Virus record (IMG/VR): IMGVR_UViG_3300022743_000269
Span: 1-22,784 of that record
From: a virus
Reading direction: 5' to 3' (one strand)
DNA length: 22,784 nucleotides
The notes under the pieces were generated by a model. The model was not told the DNA's origin. It saw only the letters and a program-made list of their open reading frames with translations, and did not search any database. Positions 3,602-10,591 of the stretch are shown here, piece after piece (the stretch's first letter is position 1; every line of letters starts with the position of its first letter). Both the position numbers and the translations under genes were made by a program.

Positions 3602-4045
3602 CTATGGAGTTCTATTGGTGTTGGTTAGTGGAAATTGTTCACACCACAGATTGGGCAGAACATTACGTGTGATCCACATCATGCTGACCTGCTGAGGCTG
3701 TTTCCCCTCAAGAATATTCATCACCAGCGATGGATCCAGCAGCGTCAGTCTCAACAGTTCGTTGACTGTGCTCGGGTCAAGCTCTTCCAGCTTGGCAATT
3801 TCTGAGCCGCTGCGGACCTCACCAGCATCCAGCAGTCGCTGCCAGTAGTGGGCCCGAGCGAGTCCCTGGAGCAGTGCAATTTGGCTGCTCTTCTCTATGC
3901 ACTCGCCATTCAAGTGACCTTCGGGCATTTCGGGTGTCATCACAACTGTTTTGATGCCCGGACGGCGCTTGAGCTTGAAGGGGGTGCGCGTGGTGATCCG
4001 AAAGGTGTCGTCGCTCGTAATGTCGCTGACGGTCATGTCGCTCAT
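3602..4045 (-). CDS. Recombinase-associated ParB-HTH-like small protein
   Basis: 147 aa, last gene of the recombination operon. Residues 60-115 contain LARAHYWQRLLDAGEVRSGSE followed by IAKLEELDPSTVNELLRLTLLDPSLV and ILEGKQP. This helical, HTH-bearing pattern is characteristic of small proteins encoded just after serine recombinases in proteobacterial phages and islands, and it resembles the HTH of ParB/KorB. Its ATG overlaps the recombinase stop (ATGA at 4042-4045), so translation is coupled. A DNA-binding recombination accessory or directionality factor is a plausible role, but this is inference. The last 25 residues (WCEQFPLTNTNRTP end) have no clear conservation signal. Confidence 0.75.
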   Translation of the reverse strand: MSDMTVSDITSDDTFRITTRTPFKLKRRPGIKTVVMTPEMPEGHLNGECIEKSSQIALLQGLARAHYWQRLLDAGEVRSGSEIAKLEELDPSTVNELLRLTLLDPSLVMNILEGKQPQQVSMMWITRNVLPNLWCEQFPLTNTNRTP

Positions 4046-5385
4046 GCGGGCATCTCCAGTTCCAGCATCTCTGCCCCCGTTGTTTTGGGCTTCATGGTTT
4101 CCAGCAGGGGGATCCAGTTATCTGTGCGCCAACTGACCTCAACCGTATCGTCCTCATGGAGCGTGATCCGTTCCACCAGGCTTCGGATGATGTGGCTTTT
4201 CACCTGATCAAAGTAGTTGTCCCAGATCTTCGCAGTGCGCTGCAAGATGAGCACGACCGCCTGCGGTTCTGGAATGCCAGGATTGATGGACTGGATGCGA
4301 TGCCAGTATTGGTTGAGCATCGTGCCCGAGCGCAGAAAATCAAGCACCTGCTTGGTCACTTCTTGTTCGATGGGTTCAGCCGGTTGATTCGGAATACTGC
4401 TCTGGCTGGCACCTTCGTGCATCTTCTTGTTGTGCACGTAGTATCGATAGATCTTCCCAGATTTTTTTTGTGTCGCCATTGGCAGGTACAGGTCACCGCC
4501 AGGGCTGTAGATCAGACCACGTAACAGGAACTCGGTGCGCGCCTTCATGGCCCAGGTGGCCTGGCTCTTAGCCTCGCTTGTGCGTGCCATCATCTCTTGC
4601 ACGCAGTCCCATTTGGCCTGGTCAATCAAGGGCTGGTGGGCCCCAGCGTAGAACTGCCCCTTGTGCGAAATCATCCCGAGGTAAACCCGGTTTTTCAGGA
4701 CCTTGTGGAGTGATTGCTTGCAGAAATGCCGACCTGATTTCGTCAAGCGATTTTGTTCCTTCATTTGCTGGACCATCAGCGTGGTGGAGCCCGTGCTGGC
4801 GTATGTGTCAAAGATCCAGTTCACGGTTTCTGAATCTTGAGGATCAATCAGCAGCTGACGGTCTTCAACCCGATAGCCCAGCGGCACCACGCCCCCCATC
4901 CACAACCCCTTGCGCTTGGAGGCGGCAATCTTGTCTCGGATGCGCTCGCCGGTCACTTCACGCTCAAACTGAGCAAACGACAGCAGCATATTGAGCATCA
5001 GGCGACCGGTTGATGTGGCCGAGTTGATCTGCTGAGTCACCGAGCTGAAGCTGACCTGGTGCTTGTCAAACACTTCAACCATCTTTGCGAAGTCAGCCAG
5101 GGAGCGTGAGAGACGGTCGATCTTGTAGACCACTACCATGTCCACCTTGCCTGCCTTGATGTCAGCCATCAAGCGCTTGAGACCTGGGCGCTCCATGTTC
5201 CCGCCCGAGTAGCCCGGATCCTCGTAGGTGTCTTGCACTGGGACCCAGCCCTCGTTGCGCTGACTGAGGACATAGGACAAGCCCGATTCGCGTTGTGCAT
5301 CGATGGAGTTGAATGACTGGTCCAGTCGCTCGTCAGAGGAAACACGGCAGTAGACCGCACATCGTTTGGGCGTCAGTATGCTCAT
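4042..5385 (-). CDS. Serine site-specific recombinase, putative integrase of the element
   Basis: 447 aa. The resolvase catalytic domain covers about residues 7-155. YCRVSSDE holds the nucleophilic serine (Ser16), followed by SIDAQRE, YEDPGYSGGNMERPGL and VVYKIDRLSRSLADF with the conserved Arg residues. The recombinase domain follows (PLGYRVEDRQLLIDP to about residue 310). The region that is usually a zinc ribbon reads LLRGLIYSPGGDLYLPM then KIYRYYV; the CxxC cysteines are absent. The start is the ATG at 5385, which overlaps the DUF2924 stop; the open frame extends upstream to 5760 but only as out-of-frame readthrough of that gene. At this length it is a short large-serine recombinase and the best candidate for integration and excision. 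Confidence 0.9.
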   Translation of the reverse strand: MSILTPKRCAVYCRVSSDERLDQSFNSIDAQRESGLSYVLSQRNEGWVPVQDTYEDPGYSGGNMERPGLKRLMADIKAGKVDMVVVYKIDRLSRSLADFAKMVEVFDKHQVSFSSVTQQINSATSTGRLMLNMLLSFAQFEREVTGERIRDKIAASKRKGLWMGGVVPLGYRVEDRQLLIDPQDSETVNWIFDTYASTGSTTLMVQQMKEQNRLTKSGRHFCKQSLHKVLKNRVYLGMISHKGQFYAGAHQPLIDQAKWDCVQEMMARTSEAKSQATWAMKARTEFLLRGLIYSPGGDLYLPMATQKKSGKIYRYYVHNKKMHEGASQSSIPNQPAEPIEQEVTKQVLDFLRSGTMLNQYWHRIQSINPGIPEPQAVVLILQRTAKIWDNYFDQVKSHIIRSLVERITLHEDDTVEVSWRTDNWIPLLETMKPKTTGAEMLELEMPA

Positions 5386-5864
5386 GCTTCCCCCTTGGCT
5401 TTCAGGCCGAAGAAGGCAGGTCCAGACCACTGTGTGCCGGTGATGGTCTTGGCGATGGCAGACAAGCTGCCGTAAATCTGCCGGTTGTATTCGTAGCGGC
5501 CGTCGGCCAGCACTTGAACTCGGTATTCCTTGCCGTCGAATTCCCGAACCAGAGTTGCGCCGGGCATGGCCACCGCTTTGAGTGGAGTTTTGCTTTTGAT
5601 CTTGGAGAGTTGCTGGCCATAGTCGGCCAGCCTTTCCCGGGTGGACTGGGGAAGGGTGCCAAAGGCCAGTTCTTGAAATCGGTGAGACAGACGAGATGTC
5701 AAGAACTTGCGGTTGGGGTGAACCGGGCGGCGCGGAAAGTGCACATCCCAGACCTTCCAAAGCTCGGGCATCTTCAAGTCGTCAAGGGCTGCGACCTTGC
5801 GCTGGATGGCATTGAGTTGGTCGAGGCTGCGCTGTTCGCGTGGGGTGATGGATCGTTGCTTCAT
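5382..5864 (-). CDS. DUF2924 domain protein
   Basis: 160 aa, typical of the DUF2924 family. Visible landmarks are MPELWKVWDVHFPRRPVHPNR, the following FLTSRLSHRFQELAFG, then PGATLVREFDGKEYRVQVL and the C-terminal YGSLSAIAKTITGTQWSGP before AFFGL. Its molecular role is not established. In phages and islands it is regularly found directly upstream of a serine recombinase, as here, where its stop overlaps the recombinase ATG (ATGA at 5382-5385). The C-terminal block resembles a small DNA-binding fold, so an accessory role in recombination is a reasonable guess. Confidence 0.85.
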   Translation of the reverse strand: MKQRSITPREQRSLDQLNAIQRKVAALDDLKMPELWKVWDVHFPRRPVHPNRKFLTSRLSHRFQELAFGTLPQSTRERLADYGQQLSKIKSKTPLKAVAMPGATLVREFDGKEYRVQVLADGRYEYNRQIYGSLSAIAKTITGTQWSGPAFFGLKAKGEA

Positions 5865-6100
5865 GCGTGAACTCCTTGTTGTGTAGACGGGTTCACATTC
5901 ACGCTCTGCCAGGCATGGAAGTCCACGAACTCGTCGAGATCAGTGGCGTAAAGCTGACTGCTGTGGATTTCGCTCAGCATTTGGTGTTGACTGACAGCGC
6001 CTTGCGCCATCAGTTCGCTGATCTGCGACAGGGAGAGAAAACCGCTCTTTACAGAGCGTTTGCCGAGGTGGCTTGTGGAGGGGTTCAGGTGGGCTGTCAT
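5861..6100 (-). CDS. Small hypothetical protein, first gene of the recombination operon
   Basis: 79 aa from the ATG at 6100 (starts MTAHLNPSTSHLGKRSVKS). I do not recognise a family. The segment FLSLSQISELMAQGAVSQHQMLSEI could form a helix pair, and DLDEFVDFHAWQ is acidic and aromatic. Reality is supported by the ATGA overlap of its stop with the DUF2924 start (5861-5864), continuing the coupling seen across the operon. A GTG at 6190 in the same frame would add 30 residues of lower-quality sequence. Neither start has a clear ribosome binding site. Confidence 0.55.
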   Translation of the reverse strand: MTAHLNPSTSHLGKRSVKSGFLSLSQISELMAQGAVSQHQMLSEIHSSQLYATDLDEFVDFHAWQSVNVNPSTQQGVHA

Positions 6101-6262
6101 TGGTAGAGGATTTGGTGAAAAAACCGTCCATAAATCGTATGAGCGAGCCCCTCCAGAGGTAACGTGTTTTGGCGGGTCATTGGGGGACACGAGCTGGAAA
6201 CCCGCATAAATCCTGGATCTTTTGAGCCAAGGCCAGCAGCCAAGCGGCTTGGATATGCACTT

Positions 6263-6290
6263 TTGACAAACCTGTAAAAAGCTGTATATT
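6263..6290 (+). promoter_or_regulatory. Predicted sigma70 promoter for the 6391 gene
   Basis: A perfect -35 TTGACA at 6263-6268 is followed, after 16 bases, by TATATT at 6285-6290 (five of six consensus bases). It points towards the 413-aa gene at 6391, about 100 bases downstream. The minus strand of the same stretch has a weaker pair, TTTACA (6273-6278) and TATCCA (6250-6255) spaced 17 bases, which could drive the recombinase operon. Divergent promoters would then overlap. Confidence 0.6.
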
Positions 6291-6297
6291 TATCCAG
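6282..6297. promoter_or_regulatory. LexA (SOS) box-like operator
   Basis: The 16-mer CTGTATATTTATCCAG fits the CTG-N10-CAG rule of the gamma/betaproteobacterial LexA box, with the typical alternating A/T centre. It overlaps the -10 element of the promoter at 6263-6290, the right place for repression. It could also occlude the weaker promoter towards the recombinase operon. The pattern match is seen in the sequence; SOS control is inferred. Confidence 0.5.
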
Positions 6298-6390
6298 CAA
6301 TCCGGCAAAACTCATCCCAAGCCCCAGGTCTTCAGATCAGGGGTTGAGACGCCTCATTGCCAAAACAAACAACAACAAAGGAGACAACGA

Positions 6391-7632
6391 ATGAGCCGCC
6401 CTCAGACCTACGCCGACATCTTGTTGAACCTGCCTGTCGACGACACCCTCAAAACCTTCATCGAACGCCACACTCTGCCTATGCCCGAGGGCTGGATATG
6501 GCATGACTCGATCCAAGCCTCCAAGAGCCTGATCGGCTTGATTCAGTTGCATCCGAATGCCGCCATGCGTGATCGCATCGTGGCCGGTTTGCTTGCCAGC
6601 ACGCTGCTGGCTCATCCTTTGGGTAAGCAGGCAATGTTTCAGGCTGCGCATGACCGCCCGACGGAATTGATGGGGCTCATTGCCTGCAAGAGCGACTTGC
6701 ACCGGGCGTTCTGGTTGTATGTCCATCACCCGGCGCTGTTTGAAGCGGCGGCCGAAATCGAATATCTGGACCACCATGGTCAGCAAGCCCAACAGCACGA
6801 TCTTGGGATCAAGCATCCCATCGAGCGCGACGAGACCTCGATTGCTGCGTTCAGTGACGCCATCAAAGGTTTCTACCAGCGGGAGTTGGGGTGCGGTGAG
6901 GTTTGCGTGATCAATGTGCTGGACCGGGCGCGTGGCACGCAATTGATCTCTATCCACGCCAAGGACCTGGCCACTGCCAAGCTGGAGTTCGAGGGCAGTC
7001 AGTTGCAGCGACGGGTGGGCAGCCCAAACATCCACATGGTGCTGGAATACGCCCAGACCACTGGGGTGGCCCGCACCATCATCCGGGGCGGGGCGAAGTA
7101 CCACGCCATGTTGTGCGAGGCATTTGCCAAGCACTTGTTGGGCGTGGATGCCGATGCGCAGCGAATCCAAACACCTCGGCTTAATTTGTCCAACTTGCGC
7201 TTAGGCATGAATATTCCGCAGGCGATCAATGACGGTTTCGTTGGCCTGCAGGTCAAGAGTGTGACTGTCGTCAGTGGCTGTGGCCAACTCAAAATGGAAT
7301 GCACCGCCAGTGCGGCCAGCGATCAGCGCTGCGTGACGGATCTGCTGGCTGACTACTTTGGCTCAGAAAACCCACTCACCCGAGGGTGGTTGATTCAGGC
7401 GGCGGTACTCAATTTCTACCTTGCACCCATGCAGGGCAAGAGCCGCTGCTCAGTGGTCAGTTTGGAGATCACAAGCAAGGGGCGCCTGAACCTGCACAAG
7501 TTCGATGAAAAGCTGCGAGCTCAACTCGAGGGTTATCTGGTGCAGTTGGGGATCCTGAAAGGTCAGCAGGTGCTCCAACCTGATCCAGAGACTGCAAAGC
7601 TGAAGGTTCTGGTTGGTGGCTTGTTTGAGTGA
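6391..7632 (+). CDS. Hypothetical protein, probable SOS-box-controlled gene A
   Basis: 413 aa, family not recognised. It has no signal peptide, no membrane segment and no nucleotide-binding motif I can point to. The first 160 residues are helix-rich with many His/Trp/Leu (PEGWIWHDSIQASKSLIGLIQ; HRAFWLYVHHPALFEAAAEIEYLD). Residues 170-260 look more alpha/beta (CGEVCVINVLDRARGTQLISIH; MVLEYAQTTGVARTIIRGGAKYHAM). The tail ends KLKVLVGGLFE. A purine-rich AAAGGAGACAACGA precedes the ATG, a good ribosome binding site. It is first in a two-gene operon that diverges from the recombinase operon and has a CTG-N10-CAG site in its promoter. A cytosolic role linked to DNA damage or element mobility is only a guess. 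Confidence 0.75.
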   Translation: MSRPQTYADILLNLPVDDTLKTFIERHTLPMPEGWIWHDSIQASKSLIGLIQLHPNAAMRDRIVAGLLASTLLAHPLGKQAMFQAAHDRPTELMGLIACKSDLHRAFWLYVHHPALFEAAAEIEYLDHHGQQAQQHDLGIKHPIERDETSIAAFSDAIKGFYQRELGCGEVCVINVLDRARGTQLISIHAKDLATAKLEFEGSQLQRRVGSPNIHMVLEYAQTTGVARTIIRGGAKYHAMLCEAFAKHLLGVDADAQRIQTPRLNLSNLRLGMNIPQAINDGFVGLQVKSVTVVSGCGQLKMECTASAASDQRCVTDLLADYFGSENPLTRGWLIQAAVLNFYLAPMQGKSRCSVVSLEITSKGRLNLHKFDEKLRAQLEGYLVQLGILKGQQVLQPDPETAKLKVLVGGLFE

Positions 7633-7641
7633 GGAGCTTGA

Positions 7642-8601
7642 ATGGAGATCACGCTGAACCAGCAAGCCATCAATCTAGCGGCCTTATTTTTCGTGCGAGG
7701 CGGCGTCTCAATGGAGAGCGGCCTGCATGATGGAGAAATCCTGGCGCTGCATGTTCTTAAGGAAGCCAAAGCAGTAGTTCCAGGCCAGATCAGCACCCGT
7801 GATGCCATGTGCGCATTTTGTGGTCTGTACCGAGGGCCGATCTTCCGGACCGACGAGGGCCTCATGGTGCAGTGTCCCGACTGTGGACCATTTCGGCTGG
7901 ATCTAGCCAGTCAGCGCAGTTGGAAGCTGGATGATGAATGGCTTATTCGCCGGTTGCGCGGTGCACTGGACATTGCGCTGCACTCAACAGCATCATCGAT
8001 CGTCGACGGCGTATGGGACATTGGTCGATACAAGAAGCGGCCTGTAGTGCTGGCTCGCCGGATTGATCTGGTGGAGCGCCATGGGCTACGGATTTTTCAT
8101 GGCCCTGAGCCACGCAACCAAAGCTGGGTGATTACACCCAGACCGCTGGGACGCATGACCCAGGATCCGCTGGAGGGAACTGCAACCTGGTGGCAGCTGG
8201 AAGATCGTTTCGCACTTCACGGCATGGCGCTAAGGTTGCTCGGAGACGATCCGGAGGACAAGGTCGACTCCAACGGGAAGGTCATTCCGATGGCTGTACA
8301 TGGGCCGTTCAGTCACGACTTCGCTTGGGTTCATTTGGAGAGTTGGCCGCATGGGCCCATCCGTTTGACAGAGGCTCAAGCCAGATTGTTTGCAGTTCTC
8401 TGGGAGTACAGGCACCTAGCTCAGTCAGCAGAATTTCTGATGAGGCACGCTGGACTGGCCAGTGATAAACCGATGGATGTTTTCAAGGTCAAGGCCGCAA
8501 ATCGTGGCGATCCCCTGTACGAGGGGCCGATTCATGCCTATGAACAACTGGTCAGCCGACAGCGTCGATTGGGGCAATATCGGTTGTATTGGCCGAGCTA
8601 A
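7642..8601 (+). CDS. Hypothetical protein with zinc-ribbon-like cysteines, gene B of the pair
   Basis: 319 aa, not recognised. Four cysteines are spaced as a zinc ribbon: CAFC (57-60) and CPDC (78-81), separated by a short beta-like segment. A charged region with RRLRGALDIALHS and then IGRYKKRPVVLARRIDLVERHG follows. The C-terminal third (from about 230) has PIRLTEAQARLFAVLWEYR and AYEQLVSRQRRLGQYRLY, which could be a winged-helix or response-regulator-like DNA-binding unit. A GAGGAG site lies 6 bases before the ATG, and only 9 bases separate it from the preceding stop, so it is co-transcribed with the 6391 gene. Zinc plus basic helices suggests nucleic-acid binding; this is inference. Confidence 0.7.
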   Translation: MEITLNQQAINLAALFFVRGGVSMESGLHDGEILALHVLKEAKAVVPGQISTRDAMCAFCGLYRGPIFRTDEGLMVQCPDCGPFRLDLASQRSWKLDDEWLIRRLRGALDIALHSTASSIVDGVWDIGRYKKRPVVLARRIDLVERHGLRIFHGPEPRNQSWVITPRPLGRMTQDPLEGTATWWQLEDRFALHGMALRLLGDDPEDKVDSNGKVIPMAVHGPFSHDFAWVHLESWPHGPIRLTEAQARLFAVLWEYRHLAQSAEFLMRHAGLASDKPMDVFKVKAANRGDPLYEGPIHAYEQLVSRQRRLGQYRLYWPS

Positions 8602-8620
8602 CTAACAGCAGGTGCCGTCA

Positions 8621-9427
8621 CTAAGCAATTGAAATCTCAAAGCGATTGGGAACCCGGGTGGCCTGCTTGACAGCTACCGTTGGGTCTACCGACTTCACGA
8701 GGTCATGAATTCGCTGGTGATCTGATTGGCATCCGGTAATGACGGACACCAGTGCGCCTTGTGGGAATTCCAGAAAATGGCCTGTAGATTTGAGAGACTC
8801 CGAATCAGGCAATGCCTTGGACTCCTCTTGAACAATGAGCCGATATTCTTTCTCGTAGCTCCACACGTCGCTCTTGGCTAAAAGCGAAAGCAACGCAGCA
8901 TCATCTGAGTCGTCGTGCAGCGTCATGATCGGGAATGTGCTGGAGTATTCGCACTTCAAAGCGGCGCAGAAAATCTTGTTTCTCAAGCTCAATTCCAGGC
9001 AAATGCCGCGATGACTGTCCGCGTAGTGTGACCACATCAGTAAATTATTAGGGTCAGGACCCAAGCAATAAACCCTGTACTGTTCATCAATGCTGCCCGC
9101 CATTTCCCCTGAGAGCTGGTTGATCAGTTTGGCTGCTGCTGCAGGGTTGTGCAAAAAAGTCTGCCGCATGCGTTCTTGAGCCTCTGGCGGCATGGGGCTT
9201 TTGCGCTGGCACAAGTCAATCGCCCATTGGGCATGCTTTTGACGCTCAGCGAGATCGTTCAGGATTTCCGTATTGAAATGTGGTTTGCAGTCCCACGGGT
9301 CATTGAACGAAGCAGGATTAGAGCAATAAATTCGCTTGTCACGCAGGAGGGCGCTCAAGCGTTCTTCACTGAATTTTTCCCAGTGATACAGCACCCGATG
9401 ACCTTCTGACCAAGCGGTGATGGCCAT
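8621..9427 (-). CDS. DUF2971 family protein
   Basis: 268 aa, full length for DUF2971. Family landmarks are RVLYHW near the start, CSNPASFNDPWDC (35-47), RVYCLG (118-123), LLMWSHYADSHRGICLE (129-145) and WSYEKEYRLI (189-198). The conserved H/D/E/R residues in these blocks suggest an enzymatic pocket, but the activity is not known to me. The gene starts 8 bases after the PemK-like toxin stop, has no ribosome binding site of its own and is probably translated by coupling, making it the third gene of the toxin-antitoxin operon. It converges on the 7642 gene with only 19 bases between. Confidence 0.85.
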   Translation of the reverse strand: MAITAWSEGHRVLYHWEKFSEERLSALLRDKRIYCSNPASFNDPWDCKPHFNTEILNDLAERQKHAQWAIDLCQRKSPMPPEAQERMRQTFLHNPAAAAKLINQLSGEMAGSIDEQYRVYCLGPDPNNLLMWSHYADSHRGICLELSLRNKIFCAALKCEYSSTFPIMTLHDDSDDAALLSLLAKSDVWSYEKEYRLIVQEESKALPDSESLKSTGHFLEFPQGALVSVITGCQSDHQRIHDLVKSVDPTVAVKQATRVPNRFEISIA

Positions 9428-9435
9428 TGCTGTGT

Positions 9436-9840
9436 CTATTTGCTTGCTGCCGCAAAAGCGGTGGCGGCAATCCGGACCATGCTCGGATGCAGGGTTCCGA
9501 GCTTTGGAATTTGGCCGTGTGGCGCGTGAGGTGGGATGGAGAAGTAGGCGTCGTTGAACGGAAGCTCAAGAACGTTTCTCAGGTCGAATTTGGTGTCGTA
9601 GCTCAAACCGGCGCTGGCATAGGCAGCAGGGTGCTCGCTCTTTGCGATTCTGAATTCCCCGCTGTAGAGACGGTCCGTCTTTTGGCTGGTCCCATACGCC
9701 ACGCTCACGAAAATCATGCCTCCGTCGTCTTCCTTGGTCGAAATAATGAGGCCGGGGCGTGGCTTTGGTTTGGGGTGAATGTTGTCAGGGAAATGGCACC
9801 AGACGATTTCGCCAGCCGTGGGTTCCGGCCACCAGCGCAT
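9436..9840 (-). CDS. PemK/MazF-like toxin of a type II toxin-antitoxin pair
   Basis: 134 aa. The N-terminal GEIVWCHFPDN then PKPRPGLIIS is the PemK/MazF-fold opening (G-[DE]-[IV]-x-W ... PRPxLI), and a VSVAYGTSQKTDRLYSGEF strand follows. The family cleaves RNA, usually mRNA, away from or on the ribosome. It overlaps the upstream antitoxin stop by one base (TGATG at 9838-9842), the classical TA arrangement. The C-terminal half diverges from canonical MazF, so the target specificity cannot be predicted. Confidence 0.75.
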   Translation of the reverse strand: MRWWPEPTAGEIVWCHFPDNIHPKPKPRPGLIISTKEDDGGMIFVSVAYGTSQKTDRLYSGEFRIAKSEHPAAYASAGLSYDTKFDLRNVLELPFNDAYFSIPPHAPHGQIPKLGTLHPSMVRIAATAFAAASK

Positions 9841-10121
9841 CAGGCGTTTTCCAATTCAAACAGACTGCTGTGAACGGTGCCGCCTTTGGCCTTTGGGGCT
9901 GATTTTTGAACCTGATTGAGTTGGGCTTTGGTCAAAGCTCCCTCATCTGCCTCGTATTGGGGCAGGAATTTGGTGGCCAGCTCATGCAGCGCAAGGTGAA
10001 TCACTTGCGTTTCGTCAACACCCAATACATCAGCCAGACGTTTGGTCGTTGTGCGGGTCACGCCAGTTGCGCTGTCTTGCGGGCGATAACGGAAGGCGAT
10101 CTGGGCTGCTGCAGCTCTCAT
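9840..10121 (-). CDS. Putative antitoxin of the PemK-like toxin
   Basis: 93 aa from the ATG at 10121, chosen because AAAGGAG lies 6 bases upstream; a longer frame to 10160 would start inside the promoter and operator. The N-terminal half, TRTTTKRLADVLGVDETQVIHLALHELA, fits a ribbon-helix-helix or short HTH DNA-binding element. The C-terminal half, rich in Lys/Gln/Ala (LTKAQLNQVQKSAPKAKGG), is likely disordered until bound to toxin. Gene order (antitoxin then toxin, one-base overlap) and a promoter-embedded inverted repeat support an autoregulated antitoxin. Confidence 0.7.
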   Translation of the reverse strand: MRAAAAQIAFRYRPQDSATGVTRTTTKRLADVLGVDETQVIHLALHELATKFLPQYEADEGALTKAQLNQVQKSAPKAKGGTVHSSLFELENA

Positions 10122-10141
10122 CTCCGGCTCCTTTGAAGTTA

Positions 10142-10158
10142 GATATCTTAAAGATATC
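10142..10158. promoter_or_regulatory. Inverted-repeat operator of the toxin-antitoxin operon
   Basis: Perfect 8-base arms GATATCTT (10142-10149) and AAGATATC (10151-10158) around a single A. It overlaps the predicted -10 of the minus-strand promoter, so binding of the antitoxin or the TA complex would block transcription. Confidence 0.6.
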
Positions 10159-10179
10159 AAATTGACGGAGTCTTGTCAA
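10151..10179 (-). promoter_or_regulatory. Predicted sigma70 promoter of the toxin-antitoxin operon
   Basis: On the minus strand a perfect -35 TTGACA (10174-10179) and -10 TATCTT (10151-10156) are spaced by exactly 17 bases. Transcription would start near 10144, giving a leader of roughly 20-25 bases to the antitoxin ATG at 10121, long enough to include its AAAGGAG site. Confidence 0.6.
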
Positions 10180-10214
10180 CAAGGCAAGGCGAGTCCGGAA
10201 GGGCCGCCGGGATT

Positions 10215-10267
10215 AAGGAACTGGAGATATCGCCAAAGTTCCTTGATCAGTTCCTTATCAGTTCCCT
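10215..10267. repeat. AGTTCCTT repeat cluster upstream of the phage early operon
   Basis: AGTTCCTT occurs at 10237-10244 and 10249-10256, and as AGTTCCCT at 10260-10267. Spacings are 12 and 11 bases, about one helical turn. The reverse complement AAGGAACT lies at 10215-10222, and a GATATC palindrome (10226-10231) sits between it and the first direct copy. The cluster ends 54 bases before the first early gene. It looks like a multi-site operator or iteron for a phage regulator; the protein that binds is unknown. Confidence 0.5.
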
Positions 10268-10321
10268 ATTGATTTTCTGAAATAGCAGCGTTGTCCCTCA
10301 ACTCTCTGAAAGGAGTGACCC

Positions 10322-10591
10322 ATGCTGCTAGCAACACCAGCGCTTTCAACGCTCAACCCCTTGAGCGTCATGGCCCCAGAGCCATACATGCCCCCACGGC
10401 AAGTCCTGAGCGAAGCCGACTTGGCCTCGCGCTGGGGCATGAGCCCCAAGACCCTCCAACGTTGGCGAATGGAAGGGCGTGGCCCCCATTACTTGAAGCT
10501 GGGCAAGCGGGTGAACTATCCCCTCAATGCCGTGATTGCCTTCGAGAACTGCGTCCAGCACGTCTCCACCTCACAACGGGCAACTGCCTAA
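10322..10591 (+). CDS. Helix-turn-helix (AlpA/MerR-like) phage DNA-binding protein
   Basis: 89 aa. The core LSEADLASRWGMSPKTLQRW then GRGPHYLKLGKRVNYPLNAVIAF is the helix-turn-helix plus wing of excisionase/AlpA-type proteins (helix pair, KL-G-K-R-V wing, final helix). AAGGAG lies 7 bases before the ATG. It is the first gene of the plus-strand phage operon and directly follows a repeat cluster, so it may control that cluster or act as an excision factor. Confidence 0.75.
   Translation: MLLATPALSTLNPLSVMAPEPYMPPRQVLSEADLASRWGMSPKTLQRWRMEGRGPHYLKLGKRVNYPLNAVIAFENCVQHVSTSQRATA

Follow-up and report, generated by a model that had tools for sequence, protein, structure and literature searches.

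The promoter region at positions 6263–6297 of the window, which is the whole 22.8-kb viral record, is best explained as a LexA-repressed promoter of a two-gene operon in a temperate phage of Comamonadaceae-type bacteria, as judged from sequence comparison. The two genes encode proteins of 413 aa (6391–7632, plus strand) and 319 aa (7642–8601, plus strand), and it is highly likely that the promoter of their operon is under LexA control. In the proposed mechanism, host LexA sitting on the -10 element would block RNA polymerase, and DNA damage would free the promoter through RecA-driven cleavage of LexA. We infer LexA binding and SOS induction at this site, as well as the role of the operon. Close relatives of the window are found in Limnohabitans, Hylemonella and other Comamonadaceae genomes. 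The window itself contains no lexA gene and no match to Rfam.

Promoter, box and host LexA motif

A promoter scan of positions 4000 to 10000 gave two promoter-like sites, the better of which is TTGACA-16-TATATT with 11 of 12 consensus matches (-35 element at 6263–6268, -10 element at 6285–6290, plus strand). The scan bears out the coordinates of the first-pass annotation, in which this promoter overlaps the CTG-N10-CAG palindrome CTGTATATTTATCCAG. Since the palindrome (6282–6297) overlies the -10 element, a protein bound to it would block transcription. The Shine-Dalgarno sequence AGGAG of the 413-aa gene is located at 6379–6383 on the plus strand and is conserved. A weaker divergent promoter, previously described on the same bases as the box, was not recovered, as the scan detected none on the minus strand there. 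The CTG-N10-CAG pattern alone is not unusual, with 15 occurrences in the window versus 11.3 expected, and the E. coli LexA 20-mer consensus, allowing up to three mismatches, has no match.

A LexA motif was built from the lexA, recA and umuD-like loci of the nine genomes holding relatives of the window, using host chromosomal promoters only. The 28 host boxes gave a symmetrised 20-column motif with the consensus TACTGTATATATATACAGTA. One umuD-like site (L105) was excluded because its contig coordinates place it inside a prophage locus, L056. Boxes in most of the lexA promoters come as a tandem of two, and the boxes at lexA, recA and umuD-like promoters commonly have CCAG as their right half. 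The 20-mer AGCTGTATATTTATCCAGCA of the window scores 22.7 bits against this motif, which derives from the hosts of relatives and may not be that of the window's own host. Host boxes range from 13 to 28 bits, the next-best site in the window reaches 11.0 bits, and none of 2,000,000 first-order Markov positions attained 22.7 bits. The LexA reading survives the comparison with the host consensus, since the lexA, recA and umuD-like promoters in the hosts of the relatives have CTG-N10-CAG boxes, many of which share the CCAG half. From its sequence, CTGTATATTTATCCAG is very probably a LexA operator.

The divergent recombinase operon

On the minus strand, a 79-aa gene found only in the clade with the box (5861–6100) is followed by genes for a DUF2924 protein (5382–5864; PF11149, 1.9e-40) and a large serine recombinase (4042–5391; PF00239 and PF07508; phrog_95 integrase). 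It had been suggested that the box might control this operon as well, tying excision to SOS, and the two operons indeed diverge from one common intergenic region. However, some 120 bp from the box and upstream of the 79-aa gene there is a conserved minus-strand block, TTACCT-17-TACGAT (6162–6134), which, as read from the sequence, is probably the promoter that serves the recombinase operon. Neither a minus-strand promoter across the box nor a second LexA-like site near the block was found. Because the recombinase operon has this conserved promoter-like block of its own, its control by the box is not supported and we consider it very unlikely. In two related loci (L052 and L055), the recombinase modules are 78–82% identical to the window and the respective 413-aa genes 82% and 72%, a pattern which hints that modules were exchanged close to the promoter region.

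Conservation of the box and a different arrangement in the sister clade

Mean conservation in 18 representatives that are less than 85% identical is 0.96 for the box and the -35 element, compared to 0.69 for the spacer, 0.68 for the leader and 0.62 for the upstream DNA. Ten of the 16 box columns are invariant. Across loci L001 to L076, sites of at least 14 bits are found almost exclusively at the promoter of the 413-aa gene, the exceptions being a umuD-like gene in L056 and one site in L002; degenerate boxes occur in L005 (13.5 bits) and L041 (17.0 bits). With at most one mismatch, the 16-mer occurs 13 times in the nine host genomes, and the reversed control not at all. Eleven of these occurrences are at promoters of 413-aa genes, including one of a broken gene; of the remaining two, one belongs to a prophage umuD-like gene and the other precedes, by about 200 bp, a fragment that we read as imuA-like from a weak RecA-family match. 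The umuD-like gene (L056:3457–3928) belongs to a related Limnohabitans prophage, matches Peptidase_S24 and has the same 16-mer just upstream. In a second Limnohabitans lacus element (L059, L123), the 413-aa gene is present in two separated, rearranged pieces and the box is intact. The genes downstream of the box do not form the orphan cassette they had been taken for, as the 413-aa and 319-aa genes adjoin in nearly all sufficiently long related loci.

The sister-clade relatives, with around 51–61% identity over the alignment, are without the box. At 28 sister-clade loci, an ImmR/ImmA-type arrangement is present instead, i.e. an XRE repressor gene beside an M78 (IrrE/ImmA) gene, upstream of and divergent from the 413-aa gene, with domain matches to HTH_31/HTH_3 and PF06114. 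When 70 loci were compared, all 38 box loci lacked the XRE/ImmA pair next to the 413-aa gene and all 28 loci with the pair lacked the box; the four loci with neither comprise a degenerate box, a broken gene and two contig edges. In one of the box loci, L048, an XRE/ImmA-like pair does exist, but at a distance of about 7 kb. A tree separates the box and pair groups with full support; its sister-clade labels were assigned before the locus-by-locus check of the pair, and the labelled row L065 is truncated by the edge of its contig. As a single clade split separates the two groups, their mutual exclusion reflects one evolutionary change and not many. In ICEBs1, an XRE/ImmA pair answers DNA damage, and a peptidase cleaving the repressor has precedent there (PMC8960796); by analogy, the sister-clade pair may do the same. 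Given a LexA box in one clade and a switch of a damage-answering type in its relatives, the 413-aa and 319-aa proteins probably act when the DNA of the cell is damaged.

The palindrome might instead bind a different regulator, encoded by the phage, and only resemble a LexA box. Phages frequently have their own repressors and an HTH_3 protein is encoded in 8 of the 22 box-clade viral records, but these HTH_3 genes are not conserved and the palindrome has the sequence of host LexA boxes. In addition, none of the 30 viral records of both clades, all of them partial, contains an S24 peptidase; M78 is missing from all 22 box-clade records, whereas all 8 others have it. A phage regulator at this site is thus highly improbable. 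A conserved S24 or XRE repressor of the box clade was also looked for in these partial records and not found. Also very unlikely is an ordinary constitutive sigma-70 promoter with CTG and CAG beside the -10 element by chance or shared ancestry: many relatives are close, and part of the box conservation is expected of any promoter because the -10 element sits inside the box, yet the CTG and CCAG outside this element are conserved while spacer and leader diverge, the motif score far exceeds chance, and the identical 16-mer occurs at the prophage umuD-like gene. The initial proposal, that a LexA operator overlies the promoter driving the genes at 6391 and 7642, is retained, backed by the motif match from the hosts of relatives and by sequence comparison.

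Products of the operon and comparable systems

The sole family match of the 413-aa protein is phrog_37634. Its structural model (pLDDT 81.7) has a helical N-terminal part followed by a predicted RdgC/RexA-like fold. Against E. coli RdgC, Foldseek returned an E-value of 3.3e-5 and a probability of 1.00 with TM-scores of just 0.28–0.37. The model also matches CENP-N, with a low TM-score, and phage proteins, two of which are annotated as recombination-associated. Membership of the RdgC family (PF04381) by sequence was rejected, as hhalign gave a probability of 0.2% and none of 45 members matched PF04381. The 319-aa protein carries a Cys4 motif (invariant C57, C60, C78 and C81 in the alignment), is predicted to have a mixed alpha/beta fold and may end in a C-terminal winged helix, with a weak likeness to OmpR/PhoB-type winged helices (E 0.03 and worse). 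A sequence search of the PDB gave no match for the 413-aa protein and three weak matches only for the 319-aa protein. GenBank phages gave no matches, and plasmids a single 50-residue fragment. A RexAB-type exclusion pair was discarded as well, since the 319-aa neighbour is without a RexB match and has the Cys4 motif instead.

As described previously, RexA of phage lambda has the RdgC fold and RdgC lowers RecA-dependent LexA cleavage (PMC11077077). ICEBs1 has genes that limit RecA filaments, so mobile elements can modulate RecA and the SOS response (PMC11841131). The predicted RdgC/RexA-fold protein may influence RecA or the lytic decision. The likeliest role of the operon, still tentative, is that of an early module switched on by damage: the RdgC/RexA-like 413-aa protein would bind DNA and temper RecA or favour lytic growth, and the 319-aa protein would be a DNA-binding partner or regulator. 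Because of the low TM-scores and the missing profile support, this role of the 413-aa protein is a weak proposal. The pair might serve as an induction step, as a RecA/SOS modulator or as a lysogen trait. Unlikely, in our opinion, is a more elaborate scenario in which the key induction operon of this phage lineage stands directly under host LexA, making LexA the prophage repressor, where the sister lineage relies on an XRE/ImmA damage switch of its own. The RdgC/RexA-like 413-aa protein would then temper RecA or sway the lytic decision, and the replication operon would be activated by the 319-aa protein via AGTTCCTT repeats at 10214–10268.

Several comparable systems are known. The genes tum of coliphage 186, antC of N15 and the Gifsy antirepressor genes are LexA-controlled prophage induction genes (PMC3121763). 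As in the window, a prophage operon that is not a repressor gene carries a LexA operator, which DNA damage should free. However, these genes encode small antirepressors directed against a phage repressor, whereas the 413-aa and 319-aa proteins are unrelated to them; no target repressor was found for them. In the GIL01 and CTX prophages, host LexA represses directly (PMC4551915, PMC12637031), similar to the use of host LexA as prophage repressor considered here, but these prophages need a phage co-factor and have other hosts, and in the window the box is on one operon only. Pneumococcal prophages carry either C1-type or ImmAR-type regulators, which are mutually exclusive (PMC12637031). Here too, related phages appear to exchange mutually exclusive DNA-damage switches, but one of the alternatives is a bare host LexA operator without a regulator gene. 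With regard to RdgC and lambda RexA, which are DNA-binding proteins tied to RecA or the lytic decision (PMC11077077), the likeness lies in the predicted fold of the 413-aa protein, which differs by its extra helical N-terminal part and the lack of sequence-profile similarity, and its partner has a Cys4 motif and is not RexB.

LexA-controlled prophage genes (PMC3121763, PMC4551915) and exchanged regulators (PMC12637031) are thus already known. Among the results listed in a non-exhaustive check of the open-access literature, there was no paper on the 413-aa/319-aa pair or on an exchange between a LexA operator and ImmR/ImmA. The family allows two switches of the DNA-damage type, host LexA and a phage-encoded XRE plus ImmA/IrrE pair, to be compared on one conserved gene pair, and it singles out, in phages of freshwater bacteria, an uncharacterised pair that probably responds to damage.

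Further downstream, an HTH_17 gene at 10322 is preceded by AGTTCCTT-type repeats (10214–10268, spacing 12 and 11), of which three are direct and one is inverted. This arrangement recurs in both clades with a changed repeat sequence, and the repeats are possibly an operator or a structured element. Between the 319-aa and HTH_17 genes, minus-strand genes occupy positions 8621–10121, in a stretch whose length varies among relatives. They include a DUF2971 protein matching the candidate defence model PDC-S31 (1.2e-44) and two small genes adjoining a palindrome at 10139–10161, and the same trio is found in L045. Finally, two loci (L040 and L044) in records bearing the title Akkermansia muciniphila MAG hold this Comamonadaceae-type prophage family, which suggests mis-binning or mislabelling.
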